Position numbers and translations under genes: made by a program. Of a stretch of 64,000 nt of DNA, positions 5,840 to 41,910 are shown in pieces; the stretch's first letter is position 1, and every line of letters starts with the position of its first letter. The stretch spans positions 310,001 to 374,000 of the forward strand of contig CANFHU010000001.1 of NCBI GenBank assembly GCA_947446925.1, given 5' to 3'. Below the pieces are notes generated by a model. The model made no database searches and was not told where the DNA came from. It saw nothing but the letters and a program-made list of their open reading frames with translations. This stretch comes from Flavobacteriia bacterium. GTDB taxonomy: Bacteria; Bacteroidota; Bacteroidia; Flavobacteriales_D; Crocinitomicaceae.

Positions 5840-7714
5840 ATGCTAAAAAAATATGATGTCATTGTTGTAGGTGGTGGTCATGCTGGTTGTGAAGCGGCTA
5901 ATGCTGCTGCAAAACTTGGCTCTTCTGTCTTGTTGATAACGATGAATATGAATACCATTGCTCAAATGAGTTGTAATCCTGCTATGGGTGGTGTTGCAAA
6001 AGGTCAAATTGTTCGCGAGATTGATGCCCTTGGTGGTGGAAGCGGAATAGTGAGTGATTTAAGTGCTATTCAATTTCGTATGTTGAATATGTCCAAAGGT
6101 CCTGCTATGTGGTCTCCTCGTACACAAAACGATCGTATGCGTTTTGCAGAAGAATGGCGTTTATTGTTAGAACGGAACCCCTATGTTGATTTTTGGCAGG
6201 ATATGACCACTGGTTTACTTGTTGAGAATGGAAAGGTTTTAGGTGTTCGTACTAGTCTCGGAATTTCTATTTATGCTGAGTCTGTTGTTTTAACAAATGG
6301 TACTTTTTTAAATGGCTTAATTCATCTTGGTGAGAAACAATTTGGTGGTGGACGTGCCGCGGAAAGTGCTTCTACCGGAATTACTGAAGATTTAATTAAG
6401 TTGGGTTTTGAGTCTGGTAGAATGAAAACTGGCACCCCTCCCCGATTAGATGGTCGTTCTTTAGATTACTCTAAATTTGATTTGCAAGATGGTGATTCTA
6501 TTCCTTCAAAGTTTAGTTATTCTCTACTTACAAAACCTTTGGCTAAACAACATGCTTGTCATGTTGCTTATACAAATTTAGATACCCATGATATGTTGCG
6601 TACAGGCTTTGATCGTTCACCTATGTTTAATGGTGCGATAAAAAGTTCTGGTCCTCGTTATTGTCCTAGCATTGAAGATAAGATTAATCGTTTTGCTGAT
6701 AGAGATCGTCATCAGTTATTTATTGAACCGGAAGGTTGGAGTACGGTCGAAATTTATCTTAATGGGTTTAGTACTTCCCTACCTGAGGAAGTTCAATTGT
6801 CAGCTTTAAAAACAATTCCTGGTTTTGAAAATGTAAAAATGTTTAGACCTGGTTATGCTATTGAGTATGATTATTTCCCACCTACTCAACTTAAACATAC
6901 TTTAGAAACTAAGTTGGTTGATGGTTTATATTTTGCTGGACAAATTAATGGTACAACAGGTTACGAAGAAGCTGCTTGTCAAGGTTTGATGGCTGGTATT
7001 AATGCTTCTCGTAAAGTTCAGAATAAGGAACCGTTTATTTTATCTCGTTCAGAAGCGTATATTGGTGTTTTAATTGATGATTTAATTACGAAAGGTACTA
7101 AAGAACCTTATCGTATGTTTACTAGTCGAGCTGAATATCGAATTTTATTACGACAAGATAATGCCGATATTCGTTTAACTCCGCTTGGACACGCTATTGG
7201 TTTAGCGGATGATGAGGCTTTAAGACGTGTTGAATTAAAGAATGAAGGTGTTTTAAAATTGAAAAATGTATTGAAGTCAACAGGTGTTAAACCCGAACTT
7301 GCAAATCCTATTTTGAATTCAGTAGATAGTACTTCTTTATCTCAACAGGTTAAGGCTAATACTTTATTAATTCGACCTAATATTACCCTTGATTTAGTTT
7401 CTCAAATGAGTTCTGAGGTTAAAAGCACTTTAAATGAATTGTCTTTAATTCATGATGAAATTGCTGTTCAAACAGAAGTTCAGATGAAATATGAGGGTTA
7501 TATCCAACGCGAACAAGATATGGCTTTAAAGATGAACAAACTGGATGAATTAATCATTCCTGACGATATTGATTATAGTCAATTATCAAGTATATCTTTA
7601 GAAGCAAGAGAGAAGTTTAATGCAATTAGACCAGTCACAATTGGTCATGCTTCTCGAATTAGTGGAGTATCACCGAGTGATATTTCTGTTTTATTAATTT
7701 ATTTAGGGAGATAG
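5840..7714 (+). CDS. mnmG: tRNA uridine-5-carboxymethylaminomethyl modification enzyme MnmG
   Basis: With MnmE, MnmG installs the carboxymethylaminomethyl group on the wobble uridine of several tRNAs, using FAD, NADH and a folate one-carbon donor. The 624-residue length is normal. The N-terminal FAD-binding motif [17 protein letters not shown] begins near residue 11, and family blocks [20 protein letters not shown] and [13 protein letters not shown] are clear. The gene is flanked by parS-like 16-mers on both sides. mnmG (gidA) lies near the origin in many bacteria, which agrees with those sites. Confidence 0.97.
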
Positions 7715-7728: not shown

Positions 7729-8602
7729 ATTAAAAAAATACGATGCTTGTCCTGTGTGCGAAGCAACTCAATTTGAAACGCATTTAGAAGTAAAAGATTG
7801 GATGATTACCAAAGAGGTTTTTACTATTCAAAAATGTACTTCATGTGGTTTTCATTTTACTAATCCTGTCCCAAGTGAAGATACTATAGGTACTTATTAT
7901 AAAAGTGAAGAGTACGTTTCGCATAGTTCTACGAATAAAGGGTTGGTCAATAAATTATATAATATTGTACGAAATGTAACTTTGGCTAAGAAAGTTTCAT
8001 TAATCCAATCTTACGCAAAAGGAAACTCTATATTAGATATTGGTTCTGGAACTGGTCATTTTTTGAACGCTTGTAAACAGAATGATTTAAAAGTTCAAGG
8101 ATTAGAACCAGACATAGATGCACGAACTTTCGCTAAAGATAATTTTGGTTTAGATCTAGAACCTTTAGATACATTACAATCAATAGCATCTAATTCTAAA
8201 GACGTAATAACTATGTGGCATGTGTTAGAACATGTTTATCATTTAAAAAGAGATATCATTCAAATTACGCGTGTATTAAAGGAGGATGGTACTTTATTTA
8301 TTGCTGTGCCAAATATGAATTCATACGATGCTACATTATATAAGGAGTATTGGGCAGCCTATGATGTTCCTAGACATTTGTATCATTTTCAAGAAAACAC
8401 AATTAAAGAATTGTTTTCTCAGTTTGATATGGTTTGTGTAGATGTACTCCCAATGAAATTTGATTCGTATTATGTAAGTATGTTATCTGAAAAATATAAA
8501 GGCGGAAATATTGTAAAAGCTTTTATGAATGGTTTTCTTTCAAATATGAAATCTGCCACAAATGGATATAGTTCTCAGATATACGTTTTCAAGAAAAAGT
8601 AA
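7721..8602 (+). CDS. Class I SAM-dependent methyltransferase with N-terminal zinc ribbon
   Basis: This 293-residue protein has a zinc-ribbon-like N terminus (CPVC near residue 10 and CTSCG near 40) followed by a Methyltransf_23-type domain. The SAM-binding motif is ILDIGSGTGHFL near residue 105, with MWHVLEHV as the later acidic/His block. The arrangement resembles family members that act on sugars, lipids or quinones, so the substrate is not predictable. GTG at 7721 is the only start that keeps the first CxxC pair. That GTG lies inside the parS-like 16-mer at 7713-7728. Confidence 0.85.
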   Translation: MEQLKKYDACPVCEATQFETHLEVKDWMITKEVFTIQKCTSCGFHFTNPVPSEDTIGTYYKSEEYVSHSSTNKGLVNKLYNIVRNVTLAKKVSLIQSYAKGNSILDIGSGTGHFLNACKQNDLKVQGLEPDIDARTFAKDNFGLDLEPLDTLQSIASNSKDVITMWHVLEHVYHLKRDIIQITRVLKEDGTLFIAVPNMNSYDATLYKEYWAAYDVPRHLYHFQENTIKELFSQFDMVCVDVLPMKFDSYYVSMLSEKYKGGNIVKAFMNGFLSNMKSATNGYSSQIYVFKKK

Positions 8603-8621
8603 TTTATAAATTCTATTTTTT

Positions 8622-8653
8622 AAAGGTGACTAATCATTTTAGTCACCTTTTTC
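8622..8653 (+). terminator. Rho-independent terminator after the methyltransferase
   Basis: An 11-bp stem, AAAGGTGACTA (8622-8632) paired with TAGTCACCTTT (8640-8650), has a 7-base loop and ends in a T run. It lies about 20 bases after the stop codon and probably ends the 1592-8602 unit. Confidence 0.8.
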
Positions 8654-8738
8654 TGTTCTATTTAACAATAATCTATTTGATTAGAACTCGCTAAAAAAAT
8701 TCATCTTGATTTTGGTTTGGAATAGAATGGATGAATAT

Positions 8739-8841
8739 CACCTACCTTAATCCCTCCTCAAGGAGGGAAACTTAAGGTTTCGTTCTTTTTAATTTTTTGA
8801 ATAATTTTCTTCCCTCCTTGAGGAGGAGCCAAGGGAGGTGA
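8739..8841. repeat. Dispersed palindromic repeat, CCCTCCTCAAGGAGGG family, copy 1
   Basis: The left arm has CACCTACCTTAATCCCTCC around a CCTCAAGG core. The right arm is its inverted complement ending GGGAGGTGA, separated by about 40 bases of AT-rich spacer. Each arm itself contains a CCCTCCTnnAGGAGGG palindrome. Related copies lie at 27249-27365 and 48283-48357, and a decayed one near 13152-13203. No coding sequence is inside. Confidence 0.8.
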
Positions 8842-8857
8842 CTTGTTTTTCCAAAAT

Positions 8858-10780
8858 TTATAATACAGGTTCTACCCAATCTCCATGTTCTTTAATAAGT
8901 TCTATAAGCGCATCTACTGCTTCTGCTTCTGAAACATTCTTGCGAACTACTTCTTTCTCTTTGTATAGATGTATTTTACCTGGTCCAGTACCAACGTATC
9001 CGTAATCAGCATCTGCCATTTCCCCTGGGCCATTTACAATACAACCCATAATTCCAATCTTAATTCCTTTTAAATGTGCTGTTTTGCTTCGAATTTTAGC
9101 AGTAGTTTCCTGTAAATCAAACAAGGTTCTTCCACACGAAGGACAAGAGATGTATTCAGTTTTGGATATACGTGTTCTAGTTGCTTGTAAGATGCCGAAA
9201 GACAAGGAATTGATAATTTGTAAGGGTTGAGGTCCAGTAATCCATATACCGTCACCAAAACCGTCTATCAATTGATTTCCTGCATCGCTTGCAGTATATA
9301 GTTGAAATTGTTCTAGGTCTGTGTGTGAATGTGTATATTTTAATATTACAGGATTTTCAATGTTGTTTTCGTCTAGCAATGTTCGTATGTATCGGTAAAT
9401 TTGGGTTTTATTATCGTATTTTGTAGTTATAACTAAAATTGCTTGCGAATTTACTTTCAAGAAATCAATCGGAAGATCGATATTTTCTATTTCTAAAAAG
9501 AAAGGATTATTAAAACTATAATTGTTTGTATCCCTTAGTTTTACGTATGGATAATAATTGTTTTTGGCAGTATTATTTTCTTTCCAAGTTCTGAAATTTT
9601 GTACAATACTAAGAGTTCCTGGTATTTCAAAATCAATTTCGTTATCACCAATAAATACATAATCTGCTGCTAAATCTTGTAAATTCCATTTGTCTAAGCT
9701 TACCGAATAATTATAGCCAAATCCAAAGAAGTTACTGGTGCTAATTTTTTCTTTTTCACTTAAATCAGCAAATACAATTGGAACATTTTTACTGCCAATA
9801 TTTTTTATCTGTATTGTTTTTCTTTTGTTGTATTGGTAAGGATTATACGTAATATTTTTATTAGTTGTAACTACTAAGTTGTTTTTAGTTTGTATTCCTT
9901 TTTCTATTAGTTTTTTAGCGACTGGAATTTCAAATTCTGGATCTTCTGTTAATGAAACACGTATCGTATCTCCTAAGCCATCCTCTAACAATGCGCCTAT
10001 TCCAACAGCAGATTTTATTCTTCCGTCTTCACCATCACCTGCTTCAGTTACGCCTAGGTGCAATGGATAATGCATCCCTTCTTCTAACATAGTTTTTACC
10101 AGTAAACGGTAAGCTTGAACCATTACTAATGTATTACTTGCCTTCATGGATATTACCAATTGATGGTAATCGTTTTTACGACAAATACGTAAGAATTCCA
10201 TGGCCGATTCGACCATTCCTTCTGGAGTATCTCCAAAGCGACTTAGAATTCGATCCGATAAGGAACCATGGTTTGTGCCAATTCGCATGGCTGTACCATG
10301 AGTTTTACAAATTTGAACAAGCGGTGTAAATTTTTCTTCAATACGTTCTAATTCTTCTTGGTAACTTTCTTCCGTAAATTCAATTTCTTCAAATTTCTTT
10401 TTGTCTGCGTAGTTACCTGGATTCACACGCACCTTTTCAATCAATTTGGCAGCAATTTCTGCTGCGTTTGGTGTAAAATGAATGTCTGCTACCAAAGGTT
10501 TAAAGTAACCATCCTTATTTAGTATGGTTTTAATTTCTCCTAATTTTTCCGCTTCTTTTTTAGAAGGCGCCGTTAGACGTACTAGTTCGCAACCAGCATC
10601 GATCATGCGTTTACTTTGTGCAACCGAAGCAGCAACATCTAATGTATCAGTTGTCGTCATGGATTGTGGCTGAATTGGATTATCACCACCAATTTTTACC
10701 GTTCCAATTATCACTTCTTTTGTTAAAGTCCTTTTTTTATTGAAATAGTCTATGCAATAAGTTTTACGTTGATTTTCCAT
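8858..10780 (-). CDS. ispG: 4-hydroxy-3-methylbut-2-enyl diphosphate synthase, long form
   Basis: IspG (GcpE) is the [4Fe-4S] enzyme that converts MEcPP to HMBPP in the non-mevalonate isoprenoid pathway. At 640 residues it is the long type, with a large insert between the N-terminal TIM barrel (to about residue 290) and the C-terminal iron-sulfur domain. The cluster ligands are visible as C546 and C549 (CPSCGRTLF), C580 (IMGCIVNGPGE) and E587. The insert region, about 300-540, is poorly conserved. The long form is normal for Bacteroidetes. The gene stands alone between a repeat and a divergent desaturase. Confidence 0.96.
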   Translation of the reverse strand: MENQRKTYCIDYFNKKRTLTKEVIIGTVKIGGDNPIQPQSMTTTDTLDVAASVAQSKRMIDAGCELVRLTAPSKKEAEKLGEIKTILNKDGYFKPLVADIHFTPNAAEIAAKLIEKVRVNPGNYADKKKFEEIEFTEESYQEELERIEEKFTPLVQICKTHGTAMRIGTNHGSLSDRILSRFGDTPEGMVESAMEFLRICRKNDYHQLVISMKASNTLVMVQAYRLLVKTMLEEGMHYPLHLGVTEAGDGEDGRIKSAVGIGALLEDGLGDTIRVSLTEDPEFEIPVAKKLIEKGIQTKNNLVVTTNKNITYNPYQYNKRKTIQIKNIGSKNVPIVFADLSEKEKISTSNFFGFGYNYSVSLDKWNLQDLAADYVFIGDNEIDFEIPGTLSIVQNFRTWKENNTAKNNYYPYVKLRDTNNYSFNNPFFLEIENIDLPIDFLKVNSQAILVITTKYDNKTQIYRYIRTLLDENNIENPVILKYTHSHTDLEQFQLYTASDAGNQLIDGFGDGIWITGPQPLQIINSLSFGILQATRTRISKTEYISCPSCGRTLFDLQETTAKIRSKTAHLKGIKIGIMGCIVNGPGEMADADYGYVGTGPGKIHLYKEKEVVRKNVSEAEAVDALIELIKEHGDWVEPVL

Positions 10781-33071: not shown

Positions 33072-33728
33072 TTACAATACCATTTCTGGAACATTATCTG
33101 GAACTACTAAATCTCCTTCTGTTTTAGAAATAATTTCTTCCACACTAACTCCTGGTGCACGTTCAATTAAATGGAATTTACCGTCTTTGATCTCCATTAC
33201 TGCTAATTCAGTAACTACTTTTTTAACACAACCAACACCAGTTAAAGGTAATGTACATTCTTTTAGAATTTTAGATTCACCTGCTTTGTTGGAATGCATC
33301 ATTGCCACAATGATATTATCTGCAGAAGCAACTAAATCCATTGCTCCACCCATACCTTTTACCATTTTACCTGGAATTTTCCAATTGGCAATATCTCCGT
33401 TTTGAGACACTTCCATAGCGCCAAGCACTGTAAGTTGTACGTGTTGACCTCTAATCATTGCAAACGACATTGCAGAGTCAAAAAACACTGCTCCTTTTGT
33501 TGCGGTAATTGTTTGTTTCCCAGCATTGATTAAATCAGCATCTTCTTCTCCTTCGAATGGAAATGGACCCATCCCTAAGATTCCATTTTCGGATTGGAAT
33601 TCCACTTCTATTCCTTCAGGAATATAATTTGCTACTAACGTTGGGATTCCGATCCCTAAATTCACGTACCATCCGTCTTTTAATTCCTGTGCGATACGTT
33701 TTGCTATACCTACTTTATCTAAAGCCAT
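33072..33728 (-). CDS. scoB: 3-oxoacid CoA-transferase, subunit B
   Basis: The 218-residue beta subunit of a type I CoA-transferase that moves CoA between succinyl-CoA and acetoacetate or similar acids. The catalytic Glu is in the SENGILG block (about residue 46-52), and GKGMGGAMDLV is the other family block (MVKGMGGAMDLVASA). Subunit A lies upstream on the same strand, but a four-helix-bundle gene stands between the two. Confidence 0.93.
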   Translation of the reverse strand: MALDKVGIAKRIAQELKDGWYVNLGIGIPTLVANYIPEGIEVEFQSENGILGMGPFPFEGEEDADLINAGKQTITATKGAVFFDSAMSFAMIRGQHVQLTVLGAMEVSQNGDIANWKIPGKMVKGMGGAMDLVASADNIIVAMMHSNKAGESKILKECTLPLTGVGCVKKVVTELAVMEIKDGKFHLIERAPGVSVEEIISKTEGDLVVPDNVPEMVL

Positions 33729-33735
33729 TTTTTTC

Positions 33736-33773
33736 TAATTTGAAGATTTGAAAATTAGTTAATTTGAAGATGG
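33736..33773. repeat. AATTTGAAR repeat, left flank of the four-helix gene
   Basis: TAATTTGAAGATTTGAAAAT followed by TAGTTAATTTGAAGATGG. It holds three ATTTGAAR units and overlaps the end of the four-helix-bundle gene. It is closely similar to a gene-less copy at 41874-41910 and to the inverted copy at 34128-34164. Confidence 0.75.
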
Positions 33774-34130
33774 AAGCGTTTTCGAAATTTTGGATGAGGA
33801 AATTATTTTATTGATAATTCGAGAAATACTATCTAATTCGTCAATTAAGGATTGATCAAATGGATATGTTTTAATTTCTTTACAAATTTCTAACCAATAA
33901 TACGTTTCATCGACTTCTTTCGCTGCAATCTTAAATTTGTGAATGAAATCATTCTTTGATTCTGCATTTTGAGCTTCGCGAATATTAGCTCCAATGGATG
34001 TACCTGATTTGATTAATTGACGAGCGATTGTATACTTTTTTTGTTCTTCTAATGTTTCACAAAAAACGACAATATTAAGCGCGAACTTAAAACTTAAATT
34101 AACAATAATATTATCTCGATCGTTCCTCAT
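33759..34130 (-). CDS. Four helix bundle protein (23S rRNA intervening-sequence protein family)
   Basis: The 123-residue protein shows the family core: LIKSGTSIGANIREAQNAESKNDFIHKFKIAAKEVDETYYWLE. Members occur inside 23S rRNA intervening sequences in some bacteria and as scattered single genes in Bacteroidetes; the function is unknown to me. Start at ATG 34130; a TTG two codons upstream is less likely. The gene lies between scoA and scoB, which are normally adjacent, and both of its ends fall in ATTTGAAAATG-type repeats, so it looks inserted. Confidence 0.88.
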   Translation of the reverse strand: MRNDRDNIIVNLSFKFALNIVVFCETLEEQKKYTIARQLIKSGTSIGANIREAQNAESKNDFIHKFKIAAKEVDETYYWLEICKEIKTYPFDQSLIDELDSISRIINKIISSSKISKTLPSSN

Positions 34131-34164
34131 TTTCAAATTTTCAAATCAGTACATTTTCAAATTT
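34128..34164. repeat. AATTTGAAR repeat, right flank, inverted
   Basis: On the minus strand this reads AATTTGAAAATGTACTGATT then TGAAAATTTGAAAATG, i.e. the same units as 33736-33773 in opposite orientation. It contains the four-helix gene start codon and touches the scoA stop codon. Confidence 0.7.
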
Positions 34165-34858
34165 ATTTTGATCTAACCGTTCTCTGTTCAATGCGTTTCT
34201 CAAATTTCTCTCCTTGGAAAATGCGTTGCACAAAAATTCCTGGAGTATGAATTTGATTTGGATCTAGTTCTCCAGCTGGAACTAATTCCTCTACTTCAGC
34301 AATGGTGATTTTACCAGCCATCGCCATCATAGGATTGAAATTTCGTGCAGTTGCTTTGAACACTAAGTTACCTTCTGTATCGCCTTTCCATGCTTTCACA
34401 ATTGCAAAATCAGCAGTTAATGCAGATTCTAAAATGTGTGGTTTTCCATTAAAAACACGTACTTCTTTTCCTTCAGCAACTTCTGTTCCATACCCTGCTG
34501 GTGTGAAGAATGCTGGAATACCTGCACCACCCGCACGACATCTTTCCGCTAAAGAACCTTGAGGAATTAAATCTACTTCTAATTCTCCAGAAAGCATTTG
34601 ACGTTCAAATTCATCGTTTTCACCAACGTAGGAACTGATCATTTTTTTCACTTGTTTTTGTTGTAATAACAATCCAAGACCAAAATTATCTACACCTGCA
34701 TTATTGGAGATACACGTAAGATTTTTAACACCTAATTTTACTAATTCGGCGATTGAATTTTCAGGAATACCACATAAACCGAAACCACCAACCATTAAGG
34801 TCATGTTGTCTTCGATTCCTTTTAGGGCTTCTGAAACGTTACTAACTACTTTATTCAT
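34163..34858 (-). CDS. scoA: 3-oxoacid CoA-transferase, subunit A
   Basis: The 231-residue alpha subunit shows the CoA-binding block [15 protein letters not shown] near residue 21 and [20 protein letters not shown] in the middle. It works with ScoB in ketone-body or branched-chain acid use. Length and motifs are typical. It follows PBP1A on the genome but is 22 bases downstream of that gene's stop on the same strand only in reverse order: PBP1A lies upstream on the minus strand. Confidence 0.93.
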
Positions 34859-41873: not shown

Positions 41874-41910
41874 TAATTTGAAAATTTGAAAATGAGTGAA
41901 TTTGAAAATG
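41874..41910. repeat. Solo AATTTGAAR repeat between truB and uppP
   Basis: The sequence TAATTTGAAAATTTGAAAAT then GAGTGAATTTGAAAATG matches the left flank of the four-helix gene (33736-33773) closely, but no gene lies here. It sits directly after the truB start codon on the plus strand. Confidence 0.7.

Follow-up and report, generated by a model that had tools for sequence, protein, structure and literature searches.

Within the window, the whole 64,000-nt stretch of DNA that was analysed, a gene of the IVP/S23 four-helix-bundle family lies between scoA and scoB, which encode subunits A and B of a CoA-transferase (Table 1). In profile searches, the translated IVP sequence matches PF05635 with 83.2 bits (cut-off 33.8) and TIGR02436 with 95.8 (cut-off 24). 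This is congruent with the initial annotation, which had read a four-helix-bundle gene between scoA and scoB from the sequence. The sole solved chain recovered at E≤0.01 in a sequence search is 2rld (E=8.4e-23). An alternative TTG start is located at 34136, 6 nt before the ATG. IVP is the only gene within the unit, which is without a transposase.

Table 1. Features of the IVP unit between scoA and scoB and of the solo array elsewhere in the window
Feature	Position	Strand	Remarks
scoB, CoA-transferase subunit B	33072-33728	-	PF01144
Sense 3' (downstream) word array TTCAAATTAACTAATTTTCAAATCTTCAAATTAG	33735-33772	+	Inverted relative to the upstream array; includes IVP stop codon
IVP/S23 four-helix-bundle gene, 123 aa	33759-34130	-	ATG start; PF05635 and TIGR02436 profile matches
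Sense 5' (upstream) word array ATTTGAAAATGTACTGATTTGAAAATTTGAAAATG	34128-34162	-	Adjoins scoA stop; includes IVP start codon
scoA, CoA-transferase subunit A	34163-34858	-	PF01144
Solo array of the scoAB IVP word, no IVP	41876-41910	+	uppP-truB intercistronic gap, most of the gap occupied

The upstream array contains exact copies of ATTTGAAAATG at 34152-34162 and 34128-34138 and a copy of ATTTGAAAATT at 34136-34146, all on the minus strand. The downstream array contains ATTTGAAAATT at 33746-33756 and ATTTGAAGATG at 33762-33772 on the plus strand. Because the upstream words are on the minus strand and the downstream words are on the plus strand, the two ends are inverted. The last word of the upstream array provides the IVP ATG, and the IVP stop codon (33759-33761) falls within the downstream array, which ends 6 nt from the scoB start codon. 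The inverted repeats that had been described at both ends of the gene, overlapping its start and stop codons, are thus present, and the downstream word copies are imperfect. A gene-less copy of the repeat, placed by the initial annotation at 41874-41910, is also found, with slightly different limits (Table 1).

Single words with one mismatch or fewer occur 19 times in the window, a mild enrichment over the 10.6 expected (2 of 100 shuffles are as high). In 464 kb of the window's genome (G000), IVP ranks second of 425 genes for inverted flank similarity. A gidA/mnmG-like gene at window positions 5840-7714 has an inverted flank similarity of 39, compared with 37 for IVP.

Junctions and orientation of IVP loci

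The set of 155 distinct IVP loci consists of those from 13 genomes of the window's genus and of the best-scoring matches among those listed from 120 genomes of the family. Ten listed family matches (three with an inner stop), L028 and the frame-split copy L032 are outside this set. Of 296 genomes in a sample of the window's phylum, 233 have an IVP match, and the best 30 loci by score in this sample contain 33 IVP ORFs. Named genomes and plasmids account for 85 loci; from the genome scan, the best 80 of at least 578 confirmed stretches were kept. After duplicate removal, the combined set contains 270 IVP loci, 260 of which have both neighbours called.

Among the 155 loci, the junctions fadB/fadA (34), sdhA/sdhB (25) and sufB/sufC (16) are common. 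Rarer junctions include dinB/dnaE-like (6), panB/rlu-like (5), scoA/scoB (5, one with its right neighbour off the contig) and many others. Junction genes are named by sequence reading, except for scoA/scoB (PF01144) and the annotated plasmid records. IVP junctions often separate partner genes, such as sdhA and sdhB, fadB and fadA, or sufB and sufC. The IVP gene is co-directional with both neighbours in 235 of the 260 loci and antisense to both in 9.

Word arrays and the matching of the two ends

The spacings of repeated 5-mers in the flanks peak at 7 nt (695 pairs) and 8 nt (461 pairs), compared with 37 and 34 pairs in shuffles. Spacings of 5, 6 and 9-12 nt are represented by 25-55 pairs (31-36 in shuffles). 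Further peaks are mostly sums of 7 and 8; a smaller excess at 13 nt (166 vs. 31 pairs) is no such sum. Within 130-nt flanks, a 7/8-nt array is found at 111 of 153 genus and family loci and, at control spacings, at 2 of 153. Only 35 of 153 loci have, within their arrays, a further copy of the 7-mer that spans the IVP stop codon; the count for a control position is 11. The overlap with the stop codon in the window is therefore not the rule.

Non-coding 7/8-nt arrays number 14 in 464 kb of G000 (one is IVP's own and several are weak), 5 in 400 kb of G241 (13 IVP genes) and a single one in 400 kb of G272, a genome without an IVP match; the link to the number of IVP genes is drawn from these three non-coding counts only, coding and non-coding sequence being pooled in the controls. 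When coding sequence is included, the counts are 32, 12 and 5, compared with 18, 20 and 23 at control spacings. Arrays are therefore rare outside IVP loci. With a more stringent search, which requires a 6-mer to occur four times within 75 nt, the 464 kb yield 8 arrays (4.0 on average in shuffles), and arrays are therefore not abundant in G000.

To compare the two arms, each 5' flank was locally aligned to the 3' flank in inverted orientation; 153 of the 155 loci have enough flank for this. A locus's own arm pair scores 41.0, compared with 24.6 (sd 7.2) for arms from different loci (n=153; scoring with a small G.U bonus). In the same 153 loci, arms from loci that share a junction score 32.4, the own 3' flank reversed without complement scores 26.8, and the own flanks in direct orientation are raised too (34.7). 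With symmetric scoring, own pairs score 35.6 vs. 20.1 in the phylum sample (n=30) and 37.7 vs. 20.2 in the named genomes and plasmids (n=83). Against arms of other loci in its genome, which score 23.7, a locus's own arm is better in 190 of 208 comparisons.

When partners are shuffled within a junction, the observed sum is reached in none of 5000 permutations for either fadBA (34 loci) or sdhAB (25 loci). The sufBC loci, which mostly retain a CAGATT-like word, have no within-junction excess of own pairing (2052 of 5000 permutations as high). For dinB/dnaE, 361 of 5000 permutations are as high, and for the pair (4,12), with four loci, the own average is 23.8 vs. 25.8 mismatched. Of the 153 loci, 85 have their own arm within the top twentieth and 29 have it beyond the 99th percentile of mismatched pairs. 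The matching of the ends is therefore strong on average and not universal, with many loci that match weakly.

Outside the phylum, a similar anatomy is present in some of the few loci read. These include a Nostoc plasmid (nrdB/IVP/nrdA, antisense), a Picosynechococcus plasmid (cas10/IVP/cmr3) and MAGs of the Gracilibacteria, Peregrinibacteria and Gastranaerophilales. Arm scores are 28 in an alphaproteobacterial MAG (L320) and low in Calothrix (L352, 18) and Pseudanabaena (L353, 13); L353 has long direct arrays on both flanks despite its low score. Two of the cyanobacterial plasmid units, L351 and L352, run antisense to the genes on either side. The cyanobacterial plasmid sites comprise nrdB/nrdA (L351, Nostoc edaphicum), cas6/cas4 (L353) and cas10/cmr3 (L354). 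The Nostoc edaphicum unit has very strong inverted GGGAGTAG arrays.

Word turnover, residence and solo arrays

IVP is present in 11 of the 13 genus genomes, and scoA is found in 12 (none in G010). At scoA/scoB, an intact IVP is present in 5 of these 12 genomes; the word is ATTTGAAAATG in G000 and G009 and is of the CAATGTAAC/TACATTGG type in G011, G012 and G004. G002 contains a broken IVP and G005 a degenerate stretch at this site. In the other five genomes (G003, G008, G006, G001 and G007), a CCTCCTCAAGGAGGG hairpin replaces IVP and is adjoined by a right-hand word remnant that is G000-like (L034, L037-L039 and L042). The CCTCCTCAAGGAGGG hairpin appears to be a palindromic repeat dispersed in these genomes. 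This element is approximately 90 nt long, and similar sequence is found in the window at about 8590-8869. Among seven junctions from other genera, scoA and scoB are directly adjacent in five, G020 has an IVP fragment and G015 has other sequence. The two genes had been described as normally adjacent; this applies to most of the junctions from other genera and not to the genus itself, where IVP (5/12), the hairpin (5/12) or a broken or degenerate stretch (2/12) lies between them.

The pattern at scoA/scoB bears on one alternative, that the unit is a host regulatory module. The words in mRNA would then be binding sites of the IVP protein, which would adjust how much of one flanking gene product is made relative to the other. 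Such a module would be consistent with the many junctions between partner genes, with the lineages that remain at sufBC, sdhAB and fadBA, and with the mildly basic IVP family (median pI 8.1), but the presence of IVP is patchy, copies are broken, an unrelated hairpin acts as its replacement at scoAB and the word changes among relatives. We regard this reading as very unlikely.

The scoAB unit of G011 differs from that of G000. ScoA is 99% identical in the two genomes, IVP is 61% identical and the word is different. The closer matches of the G011 IVP are in G012 and G004 (89-91% identity), genomes whose ScoA is more distant. Because the G011 IVP and ScoA disagree on kinship, the unit has probably been exchanged at this site.

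In the IVP protein tree (FastTree, 155 sequences; 124 columns, with few forks resolved and long branches that meet, among them L031 and L026), the junction label changes 26 times, compared with a least possible number of 12 and a shuffled mean of 98.9. The sufBC loci form one side of a branch with a support of 99, and the scoAB loci likewise with 91. The sdhAB loci require two label changes and the fadBA loci require nine. IVP identity follows that of the downstream neighbour (Mantel r of 0.59, 0.51 and 0.75; none of 2000 permutations is as high in each). The grouping of IVP trees by junction indicates that moves are rare.

Words differ among loci and lineages, and both ends change together at fadBA and sdhAB. 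The similarity of arrays is at background level once IVP identity is below about 0.7. A turnover of words "faster than neutral" was dropped as a conclusion because unconstrained sequence might lose similarity likewise. The units thus mostly remain at their junction and are inherited with it, and the words turn over, with both ends following at fadBA and sdhAB. The initial annotation had considered that other copies of the gene might lack the repeats; they share the anatomy and lack the literal word.

The genome of the window (3.15 Mb, 50 contigs) contains three IVP genes, each with a word of its own. In addition to the scoA/scoB gene, one is located between sufB and sufC, with the word CAGATT... 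chiefly on one side, and one between a fadB-like gene and a thiolase gene, with the word AGACAAAAG.... The solo word families are based on exact whole-genome patterns. The doubled word TTTGAAAAT-N0..8-TTTGAAAAT occurs five times in the 3.15 Mb and its backward control does not occur. A search for solo repeats, as the initial annotation had suggested, recovers solo arrays for all three words, with TTTGAAAAT doublets at 4 places, AGACAAAAG doublets at 5 and CAGATT triplets at 5; the backward control patterns of the three words have 0 matches each. Since the search patterns fix the word, the variable spacers between copies carry no evidential weight. As a foreign-word control, GGCAATAG, the sdhAB word of relatives, is found at 0 places in G000. 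In L406, a AGACAAAAG solo, the two inverted ends are both present with no gene in between.

Two other counts of solo words were rejected. Sharing of 13-mers gives 3, 5 and 4 places for the genome's own loci; as 128 loci from other genera average 4.8, the background is too high. The count of 8-mer doublets is noisy, with 0, 2 and 8 places for the own loci and at least one place for 46 of 120 other-genus loci.

In the uppP-truB gap, a ATTTGAAAATG-type solo array is present in G000, G003, G008, G009 and G011 (5 of 11 genus genomes). A different word is present in G006 and G001, and no array is present in G007, G005, G002 and G004. The neighbours of five solo sites have no match among the neighbours of the 155 IVP loci, except for hits of 24-25% at one site. 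The solo ATTTGAAAATG array L399 (G000:C17:35515) starts exactly at the stop codon of a gene that was read from its sequence as a XerC/XerD-like recombinase. A second solo array family, CGTCACTTCGTCACTCGTC, is found on contig 1 of G000 at approximately 79403-79483, between der-like and era-like genes, with further places in L221, L237 and L238. The sampled part of G000 contains no IVP with this word, and the G011 IVP locus L026 has a similar one.

These results are relevant to the proposal in the initial annotation that the unit is small and mobile, with the repeats as its ends. In its most explicit form, this alternative describes a small transposable element: the IVP protein or a trans-acting enzyme would recognise the arrays as terminal repeats and move the unit, and the solo arrays would be MITE-like. 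Several observations agree with mobility: the repeats accompany the gene (111/153 loci), each of the three IVP words also has solo arrays, L406 is a two-ended array without a gene, an array is present at uppP-truB in 7 of 11 genus genomes (five with one word and two with another) and absent in 4, and the unit has probably been exchanged at scoAB of G011. Frequent transposition with fixed ends is not congruent with the words, which differ among loci of one genome, with the IVP trees, which cluster by junction, or with a window unit that is without a transposase. With a threshold of 1e-5, the fadBA-type IVP has matches in 26 of 72,556 plasmid records and in none of 50,697 phage records. The empty scoAB and uppP-truB sites are too diverged for a target-site duplication to be defined. 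The simple mobile-element reading fails because, among the IVP genes of one genome, each word is confined to a single locus and because words change with time. We consider a transposable element unlikely. Insertion sequences and MITEs have terminal inverted repeats, and solo, gene-less copies of them occur. The window unit resembles them in its inverted ends and in the gene-less solo copies of its word, and differs from them in its lack of a transposase and in ends that are not common to IVP copies.

Predicted RNA pairing and related systems

For RNA folding, the upstream gap, the ORF and the downstream gap were joined in 103 units that are within limits of gap length and strand. The predicted pairs between the two flanks have a median of 23 bp, compared with 4 when the 3' gap is swapped for that of another junction (Wilcoxon p=3e-16). 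At least 12 bp are predicted between the flanks in 82 of 103 own and 67 of 309 swapped combinations. In the window unit, the arms give a predicted duplex of -17.7 kcal/mol and 10 flank-flank pairs in the MFE structure. The near-identical G009 unit has 0 flank-flank pairs in the MFE structure, so the predicted pairing at the scoAB locus is weak.

An excess of wobble pairs in the arms is not clear, either among 262 loci (G.U 234 vs. A.C 223, p=0.64) or among the 138 best-matched loci (163 vs. 131, p=0.07); the mismatched control has 1708 G.U and 1906 A.C. Complementarity is thus shown, and its upkeep by selection for RNA pairing is not established. The lack of a clear G.U excess would also be expected if the arrays were a DNA-level by-product, with polymerase slippage making the arrays, template switching homogenising the inverted arms and the IVP genes incidental. 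Word turnover at the solo site uppP-truB is consistent with such a by-product, as are reports that heptanucleotide repeats are common in bacteria, with slippage proposed (PMC4679880, in excerpt). The arrays cluster at IVP genes, however: 111 of 153 loci have one, compared with the 14, 5 and 1 non-coding arrays in the sampled sequence of G000, G241 and G272. The IVP genes also have a strong sense bias (235/260). We consider a by-product improbable.

The closest known thing to the window unit is the S23p-bearing intervening sequence (IVS) of 23S rRNA. As described in excerpts of PMC4990558, the IVS of Coxiella burnetii contains an S23p ORF, has complementary ends that form a 28-bp terminal stem, is cleaved by RNase III and carries tandem heptamers ahead of the S23p start codon; S23 proteins have no known function according to the same source. 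The S23/IVP ORF, complementary ends able to loop this ORF out and tandem heptamers before the start codon are common to both. Unlike the IVS, the window unit lies between the cistrons scoA and scoB and not inside a 23S rRNA gene, so its host RNA would be an operon mRNA, and the word of operon-borne IVP units is locus-specific. Excision by RNase III is a property of the Coxiella IVS and a prediction for the operon-borne units.

On balance, we favour, as somewhat more likely than not, the reading that the window feature corresponds in mRNA to the IVS of rRNA, with an IVP gene bracketed by self-matched, inverted, locus-specific 7/8-nt arrays. It would be one of a widespread class of intercistronic intervening elements. 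The arrays in the scoA-IVP-scoB transcript would pair as a stem and loop out the IVP message. A double-strand RNase, by analogy with 23S rRNA IVSs RNase III, would cut at the stem and separate the scoA RNA from the scoB RNA, and the insert would thereby be tolerable. The arrays may lengthen and shorten through 7/8-nt slippage. The ends would be kept matched either because one arm is rewritten from the other, probably by hairpin template switching, or because both are replaced with the unit. Units would spread chiefly by vertical descent at a few junctions, would occasionally be replaced locally and would rarely move, and solo arrays may be derivatives or remnants.

A broader reading is that S23/IVP genes are coding members of bacteria-wide "word elements", each of which writes its own ends. 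In these elements, IVP-assisted hairpin copying or RNA-templated copying would carry the 7/8-nt word from end to end and to solo sites, and the ends would stay complementary while the word drifts. The 23S rRNA IVSs would then be a branch lodged in rRNA, and Avd a recruited relative. We consider this reading doubtful. If active copying does maintain the matching, the units would be a new kind of sequence-writing element.

Direct heptamer repeats such as TAACTGA have been described in the Beggiatoaceae, Cyanobacteria and Bacteroidetes (PMC4679880, in excerpt). Like the IVP arrays, they are intergenic, have a 7-nt period and are often near start codons. They differ in that they consist of one word in direct repeats, and the arrays of IVP units are inverted pairs that bracket a gene. 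The terms "S23" and "four helix" have 0 occurrences in the main text of that paper. PF05635 also resembles Avd of diversity-generating retroelements (DGRs; PMC10053308, in excerpt). Unlike in a DGR, the genes that adjoin the window unit are scoA and scoB only, with no reverse transcriptase.

Among the full-text literature matches listed, a set that leaves most subscription papers outside its scope, there is no description of inverted word arrays around operon-borne IVP genes. The S23 family gains a recurrent genetic context, which is sense, intercistronic and bracketed by locus-specific inverted 7/8-nt arrays. The pattern joins three topics that are usually kept apart, namely rRNA IVSs, heptamer repeats and the Avd proteins of DGRs, and it gives testable predictions, which are the cleavage of operon mRNA and the joint evolution of distant repeat arms. 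In a table of putative phage genes of Flavobacterium columnare, a four helix bundle gene is placed between those for guanylate kinase and nicotinate-nucleotide adenylyltransferase (PMC5524665, in excerpt).
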